In this document: piece by piece, positions 2,617-8,550 of the stretch | Layout of the letters: each line of letters starts with the position of its first letter | Numbering within the stretch: position 1 is the first letter of the stretch | Source of the DNA: Mycobacteriales bacterium | GTDB lineage: Bacteria; Actinomycetota; Actinomycetes; Mycobacteriales; CADCTP01 | Assembly (NCBI GenBank): GCA_035995165.1 | Contig: DASYKU010000083.1 | Coordinates: forward strand, 1-35,054 | Direction: 5' to 3' | Length of the DNA stretch: 35,054 bases | The notes under the pieces: model-generated | Told to the model about the DNA's origin: nothing | What the model saw: the letters and a program-made list of their open reading frames with translations, nothing else | Database searches by the model: none | Program-made: the position numbers and the translations under genes

Positions 2617-2655
2617 GAACCGACCCCTCATTTCTGGGATTTCCGCAGACGGGCA

Positions 2656-2684
2656 CCGCGGGGCCGGGAGTCCCGGCCCCGCGG
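2656..2684 (-). terminator. 29-base near-perfect palindrome between peptide and beta-helix genes
   Basis: CCGCGGGGCCGGGA is followed, after a single G, by its exact reverse complement, giving a very GC-rich hairpin 11 bases after the peptide stop. It has no U-tract. Hairpins right after a precursor-peptide gene commonly let most transcripts end or be protected there, so that the peptide is made in excess over downstream genes; that role is inferred here. Confidence 0.6.
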
Positions 2685-2695
2685 CATTGGTCCTG

Positions 2696-2767
2696 CTAGC
2701 ACTTCGGGCACTTGACGATGGTCGTCTCGATCTTGTCGAGGCGGCGGATCTTGATGGACTTGCGCAT
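2696..2767 (-). CDS. 23-residue candidate precursor or signal peptide ending KCPKC
   Basis: ATG opens a 23-codon frame: it begins MRKSIKIRRL, continues DKIETTIV and ends KCPKC before TAG. The first twelve residues are strongly basic (R2, K3, K6, R8, R9, K12), the middle is beta-branched (E14 T15 T16 I17 V18) and the only cysteines are C20 and C23, the last residue. The ribosome site GGAGGTGA sits 5 bases before the ATG and contains the stop codon of the upstream peptidase gene, so translation is coupled. There is no Gly-Gly leader site and no secretion signal. The neighbours are a PqqD/E1-like enzyme, a PqqD/M50 membrane peptidase and a downstream hairpin, the usual surroundings of a RiPP precursor. 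It could also be a chance short frame, but the ribosome site, spacing and context argue against that. Confidence 0.75.
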   Translation of the reverse strand: MRKSIKIRRLDKIETTIVKCPKC

Positions 2768-2772
2768 GGGGG

Positions 2773-2780
2773 TCACCTCC
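2773..2780 (-). promoter_or_regulatory. ribosome binding site of the 23-residue peptide, overlapping the peptidase stop codon
   Basis: On the minus strand GGAGGTGA is an almost full anti-16S match, 5 bases before the peptide ATG; its last three bases are the TGA stop of the M50 gene. This fixes the peptide start and indicates coupled, high-level translation. Confidence 0.75.
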
Positions 2781-3993
2781 GTCCGGTTGTCGAAGGAATC
2801 CACCGGAACCAGCCGGCGTGGTTCCGGCGGAAGGCGAGGAGGAAGGCCAGCAGCAGGCCGAGGTCGACGAGCAGGACCAGCCCGCCGTCGACGGCCCGGG
2901 GCGCGTCCGAGCGGGCCGCGGCGACGGCCGATCCGGCCAGGGCGAGGGAGTGGACGAGGACCGGGACGCCGAACACCGCGTAGAGGGCGACCGCGCCGGC
3001 ACTGCTCACCAGCGCGAGCGGCCCGTAGATCCGCACGGCCCGGGCCTCCCGGGCCGGGATCTCGTCGGCCGGGTCGGTCCCGCGGCGGACCGTGCGGGCG
3101 AGGAGGTAGCGCACGTACCGCATGCCGTCGTGGTAGAGGTCGCCGCAACGCAGCGCCTCCATCAGCACGAAGTACAGGTCGGTTCGCATGTAGACGTTCG
3201 CCTGCAGGGCGAGGCTGACCAGGCCGACCAGCACGTACGCGCCCAGCAACCCCTGCGCCAGCGGGGGAACTCCGGCGTACGCGCTGACGAGGAGGGCGGC
3301 GCTGATGGCGGCGGCGTCCCAGGCCATCCCGGCGAGGTAGACGCGGTACCGCTGCCGCCGCCGTACGGCCCAGGCCGAGGAGACGTCGGTCTGGAAGGCG
3401 AGGGCGGTCAGCCGGGTGCTGACCTCGATCCGGGCCGGCAGTCCCAGCGAGTACGCCGCGGCGACGTGCATCGACTCGTGCACGAGACCGCCGCAGACGA
3501 ACAGCAGCGTGTTGCCGAGCGTCGCCAGCCCGACGTAGTCGGTCCAGAAGAAGTGTTGCGGCGTGGGCACCAGGGCCGGGTGCGTCGCCACCGTCACCAC
3601 GGCCGCCAGCACCAGCGCCCAGACGCCCAGGACGACGGGGCGGCTGAACAGCCAGCCCACGGCGGCCGGCGGGACCCAGCCGAGCCGGACCCGCGGCGGC
3701 ACCGGGTCGGGCAGCTCGCGGCCGTCGAGCTCGGCGACCCAGCCGAGGTCGACCAGCTCGTCCAGCAGTCCGGCCACGTCGGGCCGGTCGTCGCCCTCGG
3801 TCAGTCGTTGCTCGACGTCGCCGACGGTCAGCCCGGCCGCGAGCAGCTGCACCGCTTCCGCTCCGATCGCCGGCAGCTCCACGAACGTGCCGGCGGCCGG
3901 CCGCCCCACGACGTACGTGTCCGGGTCGTCGTCGCTCTCCCGGATGGCCAGGGGCCGCAACCGCGCCCGGGTACCCGCGCCCGTCTCCGTCAT
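2773..3993 (-). CDS. membrane M50-type metallopeptidase with N-terminal PqqD-like domain
   Basis: A 406-residue polytopic protein related to the peptide zinc metalloproteases found in RiPP clusters (SkfC/YydH type). Residues about 10-92 resemble a PqqD-like RiPP recognition element: strands around YVVGRPAAGTFVELP, then helices GAEAVQLLAAGLTVGDVEQRL and VAGLLDELVDLGWV. The membrane part has about six segments (roughly 119-137, 155-170, 218-240, 244-264, 324-344, 371-389). HESMH at 172-176 is the HExxH zinc motif, and D272 in MRTDLYF probably supplies the third ligand. The start is the ATG overlapping the upstream gene's stop (ATGA), preferred over an in-frame upstream ATG at 4206 inside that gene. 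It ends 5 bases before the peptide. The likely role is recognition and intramembrane cleavage or export of that peptide (inference). Confidence 0.8.
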   Translation of the reverse strand: MTETGAGTRARLRPLAIRESDDDPDTYVVGRPAAGTFVELPAIGAEAVQLLAAGLTVGDVEQRLTEGDDRPDVAGLLDELVDLGWVAELDGRELPDPVPPRVRLGWVPPAAVGWLFSRPVVLGVWALVLAAVVTVATHPALVPTPQHFFWTDYVGLATLGNTLLFVCGGLVHESMHVAAAYSLGLPARIEVSTRLTALAFQTDVSSAWAVRRRQRYRVYLAGMAWDAAAISAALLVSAYAGVPPLAQGLLGAYVLVGLVSLALQANVYMRTDLYFVLMEALRCGDLYHDGMRYVRYLLARTVRRGTDPADEIPAREARAVRIYGPLALVSSAGAVALYAVFGVPVLVHSLALAGSAVAAARSDAPRAVDGGLVLLVDLGLLLAFLLAFRRNHAGWFRWIPSTTGRR

Positions 3994-5072
3994 GACGTGC
4001 GGTCGCCGCAGGCCGGACAGTGCGGGTCCCGGGTGGCGGCCAGGAAGTACGAGTGGTCCCAGCGGGCCAGGTTGAGCTGGAAGACGCCGCCGCGGATCTG
4101 GGTCGGCAGGCCGGCCAGCTGGTAGAGCACGGCCAGCCCGCAGAGGTGGCCGGCGATCCCGGCGCTCGCAGCGATCACGGCGTGCGGGAGGTCGTCGAAG
4201 AGCCACCGGCCGTCAGCGGCCGGCTGCTGCCGGTCCAGGCACTCCCAGCAGCCGGTCTCCCCCGGCACGAACTGACCGACGCCGGTCATCGCGCCGGTGT
4301 ACGCGGCCGTGAACCAGGGCGTCGACGTCCGCAGCGCGGCCTCGTTCGCCCACGACTGGATCTCGCCGGCGGGCTCGTCCGCGCAGAGCACGAAGGCGTC
4401 GCAGCCGGCGATGAAGCGCTCGACGTCCCGTACGGAGGAGACCCGCAGGTCCTGGGCGGTGACGGCGACCGTCGAGTTCAGCGCGGTCAGGCGCTCGGCC
4501 GCGGCCGCCGCCTTGGGCCGGCCGACGTCCGCCTCGCAGTACAGGAGCTGGCGGGTGAGGTTGCCCTCCTCGACCACGTCGAAGTCCGCGCAGCGCAGCG
4601 CTCCGACGCCGCTGGCGACCAGCCCGGCGGCGACGGACGAGCCGGTCCCGCCGAGCCCGAGCAGCGCGACCTCGGCCTTGCGGATCCGCGCCAGCGCCTC
4701 GTACGGGGACGACCGCGGGGAGGCGTCGATCCAGGCGAGGAAGTCCCGGGTCGAGCGGTACCGGTCGGACTCGGACTCGCTCAGGCCCGGTGGCAACGGT
4801 GCCGCGGCGTCCTCGACGTGGCCCGCGCGGACGAGCTCGTCGATGGCCGACTCGACGTCCCCGGCCGTCCAGTCCGGGTGGGTGGAGCTGAGCCGGGCGG
4901 AGATCCCGGCGCCGTCGAGGGTGCCGTCCATCAGCTCCAGCAGGCGGGCCACGGTCCCGTACTCGTCATCGACGATCTCCGAGGCGATGCCGAACTGCTC
5001 CAGCCCGAGCCTGATCGTGCCGTCAGGCCGGACCAACGGCCGGTGCACCCGCTTGACCCTCGGCCGTAGCAC
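3990..5072 (-). CDS. E1/ThiF-like adenylating enzyme with N-terminal PqqD/RRE-like domain
   Basis: A 360-residue enzyme of the ThiF/MoeB/MccB superfamily, which adenylates the C-terminal carboxylate of a small protein or peptide. Residues about 10-90 form a PqqD-like winged-helix region (GTVARLLELMDGT and DVESAIDELVRAGHV), as in RiPP E1-like partners. The adenylation domain is intact: GLGGTGS at 139-145, D165 and N171-LTRQ, K187 in GRPK, and D232. Zinc cysteine pairs are C275/C278 (CWEC) and C352/C355 (CPAC). No thiamin or molybdopterin gene is nearby; instead it overlaps the M50 gene by four bases and lies upstream of the 23-residue peptide, so that peptide is the probable substrate (inference, by analogy to MccB acting on MccA). 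The start is GTG, with GGAGGCGAGG 5-14 bases upstream. There is no YcaO partner, so azoline formation is not expected. Confidence 0.85.
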   Translation of the reverse strand: MLRPRVKRVHRPLVRPDGTIRLGLEQFGIASEIVDDEYGTVARLLELMDGTLDGAGISARLSSTHPDWTAGDVESAIDELVRAGHVEDAAAPLPPGLSESESDRYRSTRDFLAWIDASPRSSPYEALARIRKAEVALLGLGGTGSSVAAGLVASGVGALRCADFDVVEEGNLTRQLLYCEADVGRPKAAAAAERLTALNSTVAVTAQDLRVSSVRDVERFIAGCDAFVLCADEPAGEIQSWANEAALRTSTPWFTAAYTGAMTGVGQFVPGETGCWECLDRQQPAADGRWLFDDLPHAVIAASAGIAGHLCGLAVLYQLAGLPTQIRGGVFQLNLARWDHSYFLAATRDPHCPACGDRTS

Positions 5073-5269: not shown

Positions 5270-6115
5270 TCAGGCGGCGTCGACGCCGAGGTTGACGACG
5301 GCGAGGTAGCCGGTGCCGGTCCTGCGGAGGGTCACGAGGCCGGAGGCGTCGTAGATCGAGTCGTCGGAGTTGCGGGTGTCGCGGCCGGAGTGCTCGTCGT
5401 ACGGCGACGTCGCGAAGACGGCGTCGTTCACGGCCTCGTCGAAGTACAGCTGGGTGGTCACCACGGTCTTGCGGTTCACGTGCAGCTTGAGGTGGATGTG
5501 CACGGTGCGCCCGCGATACCAGCCCGGGTAGATCGTCGTGAACTGCGCGATGCCGTTGGCGTCGGCGACCTGGGCGCCGCGCAGGTAGGTCCCGTCGTCA
5601 CCGGGGGACGCCTCCTGGTCGCCGGAGCTGTACGACCCGTCGGAGGTCCCGCCCCCGCCGCCCCCGGGACCACCGCCGGACGCGGACTCGAAGCCGGAGT
5701 ACACGCCGCCGGCGTCGCAGTGCCAGATCTCCAGCACGCTGTTCGCGATCGGCATCGGCGCGGAGCCGTTCGAGCACGACGACACGTCATGGGCCCGTAC
5801 GGCCAGGACCAGTTCGGCGCCCGGCCGGCCGTCGCGGACGTCGGACCGAATGGCGTCGACGTCGAACCAGTACGGGCCCTGCGTCTCCTCCTTCGCCGTC
5901 GTGCACGTGTTCGCCTGGTTCAGCAGGGCGATCACGTCGGAGCTCGCGGTGGACGAGGGCGTGAGCGGGGTGGTGCTGGAGGGCGCGGTGGTGGCGGTGG
6001 TGGTCGAGGACCCCGTGCACGCTGCGACCAGCGCCCCGAGGCTGACGGTCCCGCCCAGCGACAACGCCCGCCGCCGGCTGATCAGCGCCCGGCTCCGCTG
6101 CACGTCGTCGTTCAT
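5270..6115 (-). CDS. exported intradiol-dioxygenase-like lipoprotein
   Basis: A 281-residue member of the intradiol ring-cleavage dioxygenase family (protocatechuate 3,4-dioxygenase fold). The N-terminus carries a twin-arginine-like stretch (SRRRALSLGG, residues 13-22) and a lipobox ending at C33, followed by a Ser/Thr-rich linker, so it is probably exported folded and lipid-anchored. The four iron ligands are recognisable: Y139 in DAGGVYSG, Y196 in IYPGWY, and H206 and H208 in VHIHLK. A Gly-rich insertion at about 147-156 is unusual. The start at 6115 has AAGG 8 bases upstream; an in-frame ATG at 6187 has no such site and adds a non-signal extension. Extracellular members of this group are widespread in actinomycetes and their substrates are mostly unknown; I do not assign one. 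Confidence 0.85.
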   Translation of the reverse strand: MNDDVQRSRALISRRRALSLGGTVSLGALVAACTGSSTTTATTAPSSTTPLTPSSTASSDVIALLNQANTCTTAKEETQGPYWFDVDAIRSDVRDGRPGAELVLAVRAHDVSSCSNGSAPMPIANSVLEIWHCDAGGVYSGFESASGGGPGGGGGGTSDGSYSSGDQEASPGDDGTYLRGAQVADANGIAQFTTIYPGWYRGRTVHIHLKLHVNRKTVVTTQLYFDEAVNDAVFATSPYDEHSGRDTRNSDDSIYDASGLVTLRRTGTGYLAVVNLGVDAA

Positions 6116-6238
6116 GGGCGAACCTTTGCACGGGTTCCTGTCGAAGGGCTGTGAAAGGGGACGCCGGAGCGGATCCGACGTCCCCACCGCCGACCGTACG
6201 AACCGGCGGGCCGGGACACATCGCGGATCTGCGGAAGG

Positions 6239-7804
6239 TCAGGTCCGATCCGGCGTGACCGCGACGAGCAGCTCCGGCATGCGCAGGACGAGCCGCCGGG
6301 CCGCGAGCCGCCGCCCCACCGCCGCCAGCCCGAACCCCCACAGCGGCCCGCCCAGGAGCACCGCCAGCACGACCAGCGGCTGCGAACCCCAGACCAGCGC
6401 GGGCACGCCGACCGGCAACGCCAGGACCGCGGTCACCAGCGAGCCCAGCGCCCAGAGCAACCCGGCCAGGCACCCGCGCCCCGCCCCCGGCCCGGCGAAC
6501 GCGGCCCCGGCCTGGTCCGGCACCGGGTACGGCGCCAGCACGCTGAGCATCGCCCCCACCGCGAGCCCGGCCCCGAGCACGGCCGCCCCGGCGCCGAAGG
6601 CCAGCGGGATCGCCGACAGCGTCCGGGTCACGATCGCCAGCGCGGTCGCGGCGACCAGGATCCAGACCAGGGTGACCAGCGCGGTCGCGGTGTTGCGGCC
6701 GGCCAGGTCGGTCCGCGCGTCCCGTTCGGTGCCGGTGGTGACGATCGTCAGCCAGAACGCCGACCCCTCCGGCCCGAGCTGGTTGAACCCGAGCGAGGAC
6801 ACCAGCAGCGCGCTGAACATGCCGGCGACCACCGGGGCGAACCGGCCACCGGCGGCCAGCAGCGAGAACGCCGGTACGGCCAGCCCGAACACCATCATCT
6901 GCAGCCAGCTGAACTTCAGCCGCGGCTCCCGCCAGGCGTAGCGCAGGTCCTTGCCCGCGACCGCGCCGAGCCGGTCGTCCGGCAGCAGCCGCAGCAGCCC
7001 GACCCGGCGCGAGCGGGCCTGCTCGGTGGACGCGTCGACCATCGTCAACGCCGCGCCGAGCGCCGTGTACCAGCCGACGAGCAGGGCGGCGACGGCGACG
7101 GCGGCGTACAGCAGCTCCAGCAGGGAGACGGCCCAGGAGCCGGCCGACGCGTCGGCGACCGAGCGGATCGCGGCCCCGGGCGGGGTCCAGCGCAGCACCG
7201 CGCCGATCTGCTGCAGCCGGGTCTCGTCGACGTTCTGCACGAGGACCCGGGGCAGCTGCGCCGCCAGCACGACCAGCACGCCGACCAGCACGGCCAGGTC
7301 CCGCCCGCGCCGCGACCGCAGCAGCCGGGACAACGCCGACGTCGTCAGCCGCCCGAGCAGCAGGCACATCGTGGACACCAGGACGAAGGCGACGAGAGCG
7401 ACGGGCACCGCCGCGGCCGAGTAGACGACCGCGCCCACGCTCACCCCGAGCATGAGCACGGTGAGGATCGGTGGCACCCCGAGGAACGCGGCCACCAGCA
7501 ACCCGGTCAGCAGCCGGTCCCGGCGGATCGGCAGCAGCGCCAGCCGGCCCACGTCCAGGGTCTCGTCCACCCCGAACGCCGCGATCGGCACGGTCGCCCA
7601 GCCCAGCGCCAGCCCGGCCGCGATGAGCTCGCCGATCGAGGCGGCGGTCCGGGGCTCGTCCCGGAACACCACCAGCGCGATCCCGACCAGGCCGACCGTG
7701 AGCAGGCCGAACACCAGCCCGAGGAGCACCAGGACGAGCCGGGCCGGCGTGCGCAGCGAGGCGCGCAGCAGCCGCAGCTTCAGCCGGACGAAGAGCCCAA
7801 CCAC
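6239..7804 (-). CDS. ABC-2 type transporter permease
   Basis: A 521-residue, very hydrophobic protein with about ten to twelve membrane segments, for example LVLVLLGLVFGLLTVGLVGI near the N-terminus and VLVVLAAQLPRVLV in the middle. It is the membrane half of an ABC exporter: its GTG start lies inside the end of the ATPase gene (25-base overlap), with GGGGAG just upstream. An N-terminal basic run (RLKLRLLRASLRT) precedes the first segment, as usual for these proteins. The substrate cannot be read from the sequence. A 123-base gap separates it from the dioxygenase-like gene on the same strand, so the two may be separately transcribed. Confidence 0.85.
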   Translation of the reverse strand: MVGLFVRLKLRLLRASLRTPARLVLVLLGLVFGLLTVGLVGIALVVFRDEPRTAASIGELIAAGLALGWATVPIAAFGVDETLDVGRLALLPIRRDRLLTGLLVAAFLGVPPILTVLMLGVSVGAVVYSAAAVPVALVAFVLVSTMCLLLGRLTTSALSRLLRSRRGRDLAVLVGVLVVLAAQLPRVLVQNVDETRLQQIGAVLRWTPPGAAIRSVADASAGSWAVSLLELLYAAVAVAALLVGWYTALGAALTMVDASTEQARSRRVGLLRLLPDDRLGAVAGKDLRYAWREPRLKFSWLQMMVFGLAVPAFSLLAAGGRFAPVVAGMFSALLVSSLGFNQLGPEGSAFWLTIVTTGTERDARTDLAGRNTATALVTLVWILVAATALAIVTRTLSAIPLAFGAGAAVLGAGLAVGAMLSVLAPYPVPDQAGAAFAGPGAGRGCLAGLLWALGSLVTAVLALPVGVPALVWGSQPLVVLAVLLGGPLWGFGLAAVGRRLAARRLVLRMPELLVAVTPDRT

Positions 7805-8550
7805 CGCAGCTCCCCGGTGGCCGCGTCCCCGGCCCCGACCAGCGCCAGGAACGCGTCCTCCAGCGACCGCCCGCCCCGGACCTGGGCGATCGGGCCGGCC
7901 GCGACGACCGAACCCTTGTGCAGCACGGCGACGGTGTCGCAGAGCCGGTCGACCAGCTCCATCGCGTGGCTGGAGAACACCACCGTCGAGCCGGAGCGGG
8001 TGTAGCGCTCCAGCACCTCGCGGATCACCCGCGCCGACACCGGGTCGACCGCCTCGAACGGCTCGTCCAGGAAGAGCACGGCCGGGTTGTGCAGCAGCGC
8101 CGCGGCCAGCCCGATCTTCTTCCGCATGCCGGTCGAGTAGTCCGCGACCAGCGTGTCGGCCGAGCCGGCCAGGTCCAGCACCCGCAGCAGCTCCGCGCCG
8201 CGGGTGTCGGCCTCGGCCCCGGGCAACCCGCGCAGCCGCCCGGTGAAGCCGAGCAGCTCCCGCCCGGACAGCCGCTCGAACAACCGCAGCCCCTCCGGCA
8301 GTACGCCGCAGCGGGCCTTGGCCGCGACCGGGTCGGCCCAGACGTCGTGCCCGGCCACCCGTACGGTTCCGGCGGTCGGGCGGACGAGGCCGGTCGCCAT
8401 CGACAGCAGCGTGCTCTTGCCGGCACCGTTCGGCCCGACCAGGCCGAAGAAGCTGCCCTGCGGAACGGTCAGGTCGACGCCCGCCACCGCGACGGTCGGT
8501 CCGAACCGGCGGACCAGGCCGCGGATCTCGACGGCAGGGGCGGGGGGCAC
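7780..8550 (-). CDS. ABC transporter ATP-binding protein
   Basis: A 256-residue ATPase subunit with Walker A GPNGAGKST at 39-47, the signature YSTGMRKK near 142 (a variant of LSGGQ common in ABC-2 exporters), Walker B AVLFLDEP near 160 and the switch His in VFSSHAMELVD. It pairs with the overlapping permease gene and would energise its transport. The start is GTG at 8550; I see no clear ribosome site, and the gene diverges from the SGNH hydrolase gene across 87 bases. Confidence 0.92.
   Translation of the reverse strand: MPPAPAVEIRGLVRRFGPTVAVAGVDLTVPQGSFFGLVGPNGAGKSTLLSMATGLVRPTAGTVRVAGHDVWADPVAAKARCGVLPEGLRLFERLSGRELLGFTGRLRGLPGAEADTRGAELLRVLDLAGSADTLVADYSTGMRKKIGLAAALLHNPAVLFLDEPFEAVDPVSARVIREVLERYTRSGSTVVFSSHAMELVDRLCDTVAVLHKGSVVAAGPIAQVRGGRSLEDAFLALVGAGDAATGELRWLGSSSG

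Follow-up and report, generated by a model that had tools for sequence, protein, structure and literature searches.

A probable minimal TLAT RiPP cassette pairing an RRE-ThiF enzyme and an RRE-M50 protease with a short precursor peptide

If two enzymes that both begin with RRE-like domains are encoded together with a reading frame of 23 codons, is that frame their substrate, and what would they make of it? The genes in question lie in a 35,054-nucleotide stretch of a Mycobacteriales contig, here called the window (Table 1). The ThiF, M50 and peptide genes make up a single tight operon closed by a strong hairpin. ThiF and M50 overlap by ATGA and the peptide start follows the M50 stop after 5 bases; coordinates and sequences agree with the three packed minus-strand genes of the preliminary description, and its claim that the ribosome-binding site of the peptide holds the M50 stop also stands, since the 8 bases read from 2780 to 2773 contain TGA. 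The hairpin (15 bp, -37.9 kcal/mol, z -4.35) starts about 10 bases past the peptide stop, which probably makes the peptide gene the final one on the transcript; inspection of the hairpin sequence (2654..2686) found no T-run, and it is therefore not a classical intrinsic terminator. Genes for a dioxygenase-like and a beta-helix protein neighbour the cassette in the window.

Table 1. Coordinates of the cassette and its parts in the window.
Feature	Position	Strand	Detail	Basis
RRE-ThiF/E1-like adenylyltransferase gene	3990..5072	(-)	GTG start, 360 aa; RRE ~residues 2-90, adenylation domain ~residues 95-357	
RRE-M50 intramembrane metallopeptidase gene	2773..3993	(-)	406 aa; HExxH residues 172-176, RTDxY residues 270-274	
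Precursor peptide gene MRKSIKIRRLDKIETTIVKCPKC	2696..2767	(-)	23 aa; homologous short ORFs in 42 loci	
Conserved leader motif IKIRRLDKIETT	2720..2755	(-)	likely RRE recognition sequence	
Variable core IVKCPKC	2699..2719	(-)	41 distinct cores across the family	
Peptide-gene ribosome-binding site GGAGGTGA	2773..2780	(-)	contains M50 stop TGA	sequence
G+C-rich hairpin, probable transcript end	2654..2686	(-)	downstream of peptide gene	fold calculation

A frame this short might be meaningless, with the enzymes acting on some other substrate, and the plasmid record L115 does annotate the enzyme pair but not the short ORF. The codons speak against this: all 24 have G or C in the third position (GC1/2/3 of 0.33/0.38/1.00, versus 0.77/0.51/0.95 in the M50 gene), so the peptide frame carries its own coding signal. 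Leader-motif ORFs in 373 kb of homologous loci number 56 in sense, 0 in antisense and 2.7 in shuffled sequence, divergence is mostly synonymous (134 synonymous versus 10 non-synonymous codon differences among the tandem leaders of Bacillaceae), and a six-frame scan of the whole window with the strict leader motif has a single match, IKIRRLDKIETT. Profile searches recover the window peptide in its own genome at E 1e-9 to 3e-10, with both leader profiles including its own sequence. Recovery beside ThiF and M50 is independent, with all 15 class-level matches, the window included, adjoining a ThiF homolog, and all 16 order-level matches at E <= 6e-6 adjoining ThiF and/or M50, as against 0 of 6 at E 0.03-0.05; one weak phylum-level match (G1255, E 0.0014) has no adjacent ThiF or M50. 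A chance ORF, to which we assign virtually no probability, is ruled out by the motif counts, the codon usage and the independent recovery taken together; the 23-aa peptide is real and belongs to a conserved family.

The family comprises precursors of 19-44 aa in 42 loci, each near a homologous ThiF gene, with the leader motif followed by a core that spans about 5-17 residues and varies between loci. The leader consensus is IxIRxL(D/E)K(I/V/L)ETT in Actinomycetota, with L10, E14, T15 and T16 invariant in 18 precursors, and MKIxV(K/R)xxEKLxPT in Bacillota; Bacillaceae carry tandem precursors in 3-5 copies whose cores differ between copies. The 41 distinct cores, such as FIPYGG, VIPYGG, QLRLVG, GLREGG, TSSNSVGN and IVKCPKC, end in Gly in 20 cases, several of them GG, and in Asn in 3 (SVGN and MVTRN are examples of such ends). 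The preliminary description proposed looking for a short frame conserved after the M50 stop, with its basic half and CPxC retained, and took homologous loci lacking any such frame as fatal to its proposal. The frame is conserved in the homologous loci, and its basic half is kept together with ETT, but it lies more commonly upstream of ThiF or between ThiF and M50 than after M50, and CPxC is not family-wide, recurring in one other locus (AQSCPRCA, L115); other Cys cores occur elsewhere, including the Cys-terminal VICACSPCTDC of L143. A leader regex found no precursor in L037, L110, L112, L113 and L114, and missed those of L067 and L068, both of which the profile recovered.

The ThiF-M50-precursor trio recurs in two phyla, Actinomycetota and Bacillota, and this recurrence with a conserved tag and a variable end makes an undescribed RiPP family likely. 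ThiF and M50 are the only genes that nearly all actinobacterial loci share within 15-kb neighbourhoods, and the pair appears again in Bacillota amid otherwise unrelated surroundings. No further gene is common to nearly all loci examined, a DUF6879 gene being restricted to a Streptomyces-like subgroup and an HTH-TPR regulator gene to Pontibacillus-like loci. Three ThiF members (L066, L068 and L070) have a precursor and no M50 found nearby, and the tree does not establish that the M50-linked ThiF clade arose once: it requires 4-5 label changes or more, and its outgroup branches are long.

The window ThiF protein matches Pfam ThiF at E 3e-42, and its best PDB sequence match is MccB. Its AlphaFold model (pLDDT 91.5) matches MccB over residues 2-357, RRE included (Z 32.9), and PaaA over the full length (Z 29.2), the ThiF domain also being close to ThiF and MoeB structures. 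D163, D165, N171, R174, K187, D225, D232 and four Cys are invariant in an alignment of 34 members; the adenylation site is, judging by its residues, intact, and one GxGGxG residue is missing in Bacillota members. For the M50 protein, a PDB sequence search found nothing, and Pfam M50 has no match to it and weak matches to its homologs. Its AlphaFold model (pLDDT 91.7; two alignments used for structure prediction omit plasmid-record rows) has an N-terminus with the RRE fold (TbiB1 Z 9.2, PqqD Z 8.5) and a membrane core that aligns with SpoIVFB (Z 8.9), RseP (Z 8.1) and mjS2P, values that are modest for a helical bundle; one fold search gave the RRE alone and a second also the site-2 protease cores. 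H172, E173, H176 and R270-T271-D272 are invariant in 31 members, and the model places HExxH and a distal Asp ligand within a membrane helix bundle, as in site-2 protease/M50 enzymes. The catalytic residues picked out beforehand (D165 and K187; HExxH) thus proved invariant, and the PqqD/RRE-like N-terminus proposed for both enzymes is matched by RRE structures in both models, though Pfam PqqD reaches only E 0.15 on the M50 protein. The nearest curated relative of that protein is the daptide peptidase family (NCBIfam daptide_HExxH, NF041824), but its score of 34.9 bits lies below the cut-off of 300, which led us to reject daptide membership, and its partner here is an RRE-ThiF enzyme.

With a ThiF enzyme matching MccB (Z 33) and an M50 protein combining an RRE fold with a site-2 protease-like core, we consider it probable that the locus is a minimal TLAT (ThiF-like adenylyltransferase) RiPP cassette of a new family, in which a leader-bound precursor would be activated by the E1-like enzyme and cut by M50. 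An RRE-ThiF enzyme, an intact adenylation site and a linked precursor whose leader is conserved while the core varies are features of TLAT systems, and what distinguishes this family from other TLAT RiPPs is a leader of its own together with a dedicated RRE-M50 protease. The earlier statement that no described class fits has to be narrowed: RRE-ThiF (TLAT) RiPPs are known, among them those of GrcB (GRC), EnfB (enterofaecin) and IndF (PMC12150305, PMC12250964), and the kind also takes in microcin C and pantocin A, whereas this family with its RRE-M50 partner and leader appears undescribed. No TLAT family containing an M50 or site-2 protease came up in the papers searched, their coverage stopping short of the supplement to a 2025 survey of 27,400 RRE-ThiF proteins. 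GrcB, EnfB and IndF adenylate a carboxylate, in most cases the C-terminal one, of a precursor bound by the RRE, and an intramolecular nucleophile displaces AMP (PMC12250964, PMC12150305).

Among the closest known systems is IndF/IndA, an indolylamide RiPP of Streptococcus pneumoniae, which likewise has a short precursor, an RRE-ThiF enzyme and a zinc protease, together with ATP activation of the C-terminal carboxylate and an RRE-bound leader, both of which we infer here; but its protease, IndP, belongs to M16, and it has a dedicated transporter, an NWYFI core and no M50 (PMC12150305). The window differs in core and protease family, with no recognisable core similarity. Enterofaecin (EnfA/EnfB) is alike in its precursor of ~21 aa, whose leader contains the basic motif (V/I)RKA, and in an RRE-ThiF enzyme acting on the C-terminal carboxylate, as proposed here, but it has a WWIVI core, several transporters and no M50 described (PMC12250964), and none of the 41 family cores is of the WWIVI type. 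The GRC thiolactone (GrcA/GrcB) again involves an RRE-ThiF enzyme, and its cyclised Cys-containing C-terminus could plausibly serve as a model for KCPKC; however, it has a Glu-Cys linkage, a radical SAM partner and no M50 described, whereas IVKCPKC contains no Glu and the cassette no radical SAM gene. Microcin C (MccA/MccB) offers the closest solved structure, the same two-domain layout and a short core, but has a C-terminal Asn with a nucleotide, an MFS exporter and no M50, whereas in the window the core ends in Cys and an M50 gene, not an MFS exporter, follows ThiF. Pantocin A (PaaP/PaaA) shares the RRE-ThiF fold but differs in its bicyclic core chemistry, with no M50 partner described in review. 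An anti-phage E1-E2 system was also rejected: PADLOC matches cover the E1 core alone (~residues 113-292), and the neighbouring gene, where such systems have E2 and JAB partners, encodes the M50 protein and has no PADLOC match.

In the mechanism that we propose, the RRE of the ThiF enzyme would bind the 23-aa precursor via its IKIRRLDKIETT leader, the E1-like enzyme would adenylate the precursor C-terminus, and a nucleophile, perhaps Cys20 or a Lys in the case of IVKCPKC, would displace AMP. The membrane-embedded M50, with its own RRE presumably for the same leader, would cleave at or just after ETT and free a modified core of ~7 residues at the membrane. C-terminal adenylation is likely because 27 of the 41 cores lack Asp and Glu, leaving the C-terminus as their sole carboxylate; leader cleavage by M50 and its cut site, like the final linkage, export and biological role, are inferred. 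Since 19 of the 41 cores lack Lys, Ser, Thr and Cys, the cores share no one nucleophile and a single family-wide linkage is not assignable. The activated core might be transferred to an external amine or nucleotide, and the strictly conserved ETT, besides belonging to the leader, could itself be modified. A bolder proposal, rather doubtful in our judgement, is that the enzymes are a coupled pair, M50 freeing the core N-terminus while E1 holds the adenylated C-terminus, which would yield head-to-tail cyclic or newly linked penta- to nonapeptides and a distinct RiPP class over Actinomycetota, Bacillota and perhaps archaea; FIPYGG, VIPYGG and QLRLVG, without Lys, Ser, Thr or Cys, would fit it.

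Other chemistries would use the same parts differently. If the ThiF enzyme put AMP or CMP on the C-terminus and M50 trimmed the leader, as a variant of microcin C, then MccB as nearest solved homolog, the cores of ~7 residues and the Asn ends of some (SVGN, MVTRN) would be accounted for. MccB converts C-terminal Asn, however, which is terminal in just 3 of 41 cores and is replaced by Cys in the window, and true mcc-like clusters (L118, L113) combine ThiF with an MFS exporter that is absent beside the cassette, making this reading unlikely. ThiF makes a C-terminal thiocarboxylate on ThiS, and similar chemistry on short GG-ending peptides would suit the 20 Gly-ending cores and the closeness of the ThiF domain to ThiF/MoeB structures. 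This is highly improbable given that the enzyme carries an RRE, that the peptides are not ubiquitin-like and have a dedicated M50 partner, and that many cores, including the window's, end in a residue other than Gly. Sulfur-carrier metabolism, which the preliminary description had also named as an outcome fatal to its proposal, is rejected because the window protein scores 107.8 bits against 275 for the curated ThiF family and the genome encodes a separate, stronger housekeeping E1 of MoeB/MoeZ type (283 bits).

Two further readings concern what the ThiF protein acts on, if it acts at all. It might only dock the leader, as in YcaO pathways, with M50 excising an unmodified signal peptide; E1-like partners of TOMM/LAP systems do serve leader recognition (PMC7136475), and Bacillaceae members adjoin an HTH-TPR regulator of a type usual in peptide signalling. 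But the residues that bind ATP and Mg do not vary among 34 members, unlike those of degenerate docking proteins, and the cassette has no YcaO, so we hold such a scaffold role to be improbable. Activation of the side chain of the ETT Glu, not of the C-terminus, would recall PaaA, a full-length structural match, and would explain the invariant E14 of actinobacterial precursors. The Bacillota equivalent is non-acidic (LKPT, LTPT, LVPL, ICTT), however, so this Glu is not family-wide, and the next conserved acid (LDK/LEK) sits in the presumed RRE-binding stretch; we give side-chain activation very little credence and retain C-terminal adenylation as the likely step.

With this locus the ThiF-like RiPPs gain a compact, phylum-spanning family with a dedicated peptide-recognising intramembrane protease, whose products have probably been missed in annotated genomes because standard gene callers overlook precursors of this size. 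The two enzymes and the natural core variants lend themselves to direct in vitro tests of the linkage chemistry, with a substrate-tolerant C-terminal ligase or macrocyclase as a possible yield, and an E1 enzyme paired with short, often Gly-ending tails is relevant to the origin of ubiquitin-like activation.

The three minus-strand genes lie exactly where the preliminary description placed them, and, as it stated, the stop codon of the gene for the M50 membrane peptidase falls inside the ribosome site of the small ORF (GGAGGTGA). All codons of this ORF have G or C at the third position (GC1/2/3 0.33/0.38/1.00), the signature of protein-coding frames here, and about 10 bases 3' of its stop lies a 15-bp hairpin (-37.9 kcal/mol, z -4.35) without a T-run. 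Upstream and co-directional (5270-8550, minus strand) are genes for a putative lipoprotein with a dioxygenase fold and for a paired ABC permease and ATPase; the three near relatives L053, L060, and L069 likewise carry an ORF resembling this ATPase in the vicinity, which makes a link to export possible.

Genes of the candidate RiPP cassette in the window
Feature	Coordinates	Strand	Length	Remarks
ThiF	5072-3990	-	360 aa	
M50 membrane protein	3993-2773	-	406 aa	ATGA overlap with ThiF
ORF MRKSIKIRRLDKIETTIVKCPKC	2767-2696	-	23 aa	Starts 5 bases past the M50 stop

The proposal that a short conserved frame accompanies these enzymes held when M50 homologs were drawn from related genomes and a species-wide collection: many directly adjoin a ThiF homolog, and scanning M50/ThiF loci found ORFs with the motif of the window peptide, IxIRxL(D/E)K(I/V/L)ETT. 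A profile of 11 precursor peptides (A1), searched against 395 genomes of the class, gave 15 matches, window included, all of which adjoin a ThiF homolog; apart from the window itself, these homologs are 35-58% identical. With an 18-row profile (A7) and 399 genomes of the order, 16 matches at E <= 6e-6 all lie beside ThiF and/or M50, and six weak ones (E 0.03-0.05) lie beside neither. Several genomes with matches took no part in building the profiles.

Weaker homologs occur in Pontibacillus, Paenibacillus, Cohnella, and Brevibacillus, with precursors upstream of ThiF (for example, MKIEIREVENLTPTAIH.. and MKIEVKKTEKLKPT-FIPYGG), and searches of the orders of these Bacillota members found a ThiF homolog at E <= 1e-45 in 6 of 248 and 12 of 199 genomes. 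Four loci carry 3-5 tandem precursor genes each, and a ribosome site can be recognised for almost every one of these genes. RiPP precursor arrays characteristically combine a conserved leader with a variable core across translated tandem copies; here the 14-codon leaders show, over all pairs, 134 synonymous but only 10 non-synonymous codon differences, and the cores vary (FIPYGG, YVQNYAG, VLVPPPYAG, YYPYIS, and ANVYGG). Across 373 kb of homologous neighbourhoods, ORFs with the motif number 56 in sense, 0 in antisense, and 2.7 in shuffled DNA. An HTH-TPR regulator lies 5' of the tandem precursors in L028, L100, and L101; in L028 it is joined by a small ORF (2781-2912) whose start resembles a signal peptide, the two together spanning 1327-2912. 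The arrangement is like a peptide-quorum-sensing (RRNPP) pair and suggests density-regulated production. In a Paenibacillus ginsengarvi locus (L084/L037, ThiF at 3820-4947), a single stop codon interrupts the ThiF match of the genome search and no precursor can be recognised; this is perhaps a decaying copy.

Only ThiF and M50 are common to nearly all 15-kb actinobacterial neighbourhoods, and Bacillota carry the same pair in otherwise unrelated surroundings. The precursor can follow M50, as in the window, precede ThiF, or stand between both genes. Pontibacillus-like loci also have an HTH-TPR regulator. In Streptomyces-like loci the cassette is accompanied by DUF6879 genes, one or two of which stand between precursor and M50 in L057-L065 (9045-9683 and 9868-10626 in L058, as oriented) and may supply an extra tailoring or immunity function. 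The ThiF tree places the window in a set of ten actinobacterial rows that are linked to M50 and group with good support, and Bacillota members in a separate supported clade; owing to long branches, the order of MccB-like and PaaA-like rows is uncertain.

MccB is the nearest solved relative of ThiF by sequence (E 8e-26), and the sequence alignment to PaaA begins at residue 2. Because its AlphaFold model (pLDDT 91.5) superposes from residue 2 to 357 on MccB (323 residues at 2.8 A, Z 32.9) and also matches PaaA (Z 29.2), ThiF is predicted to have an RRE-adenylation layout. Residues D163, D165, N171, R174, K187, D225, and D232 and four cysteines are invariant among 34 members. In the M50 model (pLDDT 91.7), the N-terminus resembles an RRE (Z 9.2 to TbiB1, 9.0 to lasso B1, 8.5 to PqqD), and the core aligns, at modest Z, with SpoIVFB (8.9), RseP (8.1), and the site-2 protease of M. 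jannaschii (6.2); the HExxH and RTDxY residues of M50 are invariant. Pfam M50 gives no match to the window protein, which may be the reason for "hypothetical" annotations such as that in L115, a Streptomyces plasmid.

The loci yielded 41 distinct cores of 5-17 residues, of which 20 end in Gly, 3 in Asn, and one, that of the window, in Cys. CPxC, whose conservation the preliminary description named as support for a family, is not shared by the family as a whole; it reappears in AQSCPRCA of L115, and genome G1203 (L143) has VICACSPCTDC, a core with Cys at its end. Since 27 cores lack Asp and Glu, the C-terminal carboxylate is their sole core carboxylate; 19 lack Lys, Ser, Thr, and Cys altogether, so the usual side-chain nucleophile is unavailable in some members.

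ALTERNATIVES A microcin C-like nucleotide as product is disfavoured, as C-terminal Asn is rare among the cores and the cassette has no exporter; the mcc-like loci compared here have an MFS gene beside ThiF. The same genome encodes a separate 283-bit E1, which, together with core endings that do not fit, disfavours sulfur-carrier chemistry by ThiF, and the invariance of the catalytic residues disfavours a pure docking role. An anti-phage E1 system was rejected, its likeness to ThiF being confined to the E1 core.

We favour instead peptide activation. GrcB, EnfB, and IndF each adenylate a carboxylate of the precursor, from which a nucleophile then displaces AMP to give a thiolactone, an imide or amide, and an indolylamide, respectively (PMC12250964, PMC12150305); in a published model, an IndF dimer shares IndA, whose C-terminus threads into the active site (PMC12150305). 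Beyond the conserved leader and catalytic sites, which the comparison shows directly, we infer from homology and this precedent that the ThiF RRE would bind the IxIRxL(D/E)K leader and that ThiF would adenylate the C-terminal carboxylate of the precursor, with Cys20, Lys19, and Lys22 as candidate nucleophiles for a linkage in the window core. M50, whose own RRE presumably recognises this leader too, would cleave near ETT/PT, so that the short core is freed in modified form at the membrane.

Related genes occur in other settings. A second RRE-M50-like gene, 31% identical, is present in the window's genome (L016, G000:C79:6693-7868). Among the related loci (L010, L014, L017, L018, and L019), several have such a gene followed not by ThiF but by an unrelated conserved gene of ~370-480 aa with the motif LRGPY(T/S)AAGSLLR, possibly making another peptide-maturation pair. 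In Theionarchaeal MAGs, a related M50 gene lies beside large neighbours (L029:688-4938, L030:3-2431), and a CxxxCxxC (radical SAM-like) motif in the L030 neighbour suggests a further RiPP-like pairing in archaea. One contig of a Thermoplasmata MAG, as assigned, bears a complete ThiF-M50 pair (L027:3833-8723) with a precursor-like ORF ~2 kb beyond M50, which may be either a genuine member from archaea or the result of misbinning. Plasmids of Sporosarcina (L116:3992-6601), Exiguobacterium (L119:3992-5986), and Priestia (L120:3512-4597) carry RRE-ThiF-like genes without M50, accompanied respectively by an ABC transporter, an O-methyltransferase, and an MFS transporter with an AAA ATPase, and are likely other, uncharacterised clusters for ThiF-like adenylyltransferase (TLAT) RiPPs.

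A 2025 review mentions neither M50 nor actinobacteria, and the supplement to a survey of 27,400 RRE-ThiF fusions shows further unannotated network clusters (PMC12150305). TLAT RiPPs are a recognised kind, and the literature searched, a scope that stops short of that supplementary network, yielded no member with an M50 partner; we therefore class the trio as a new family within that kind.
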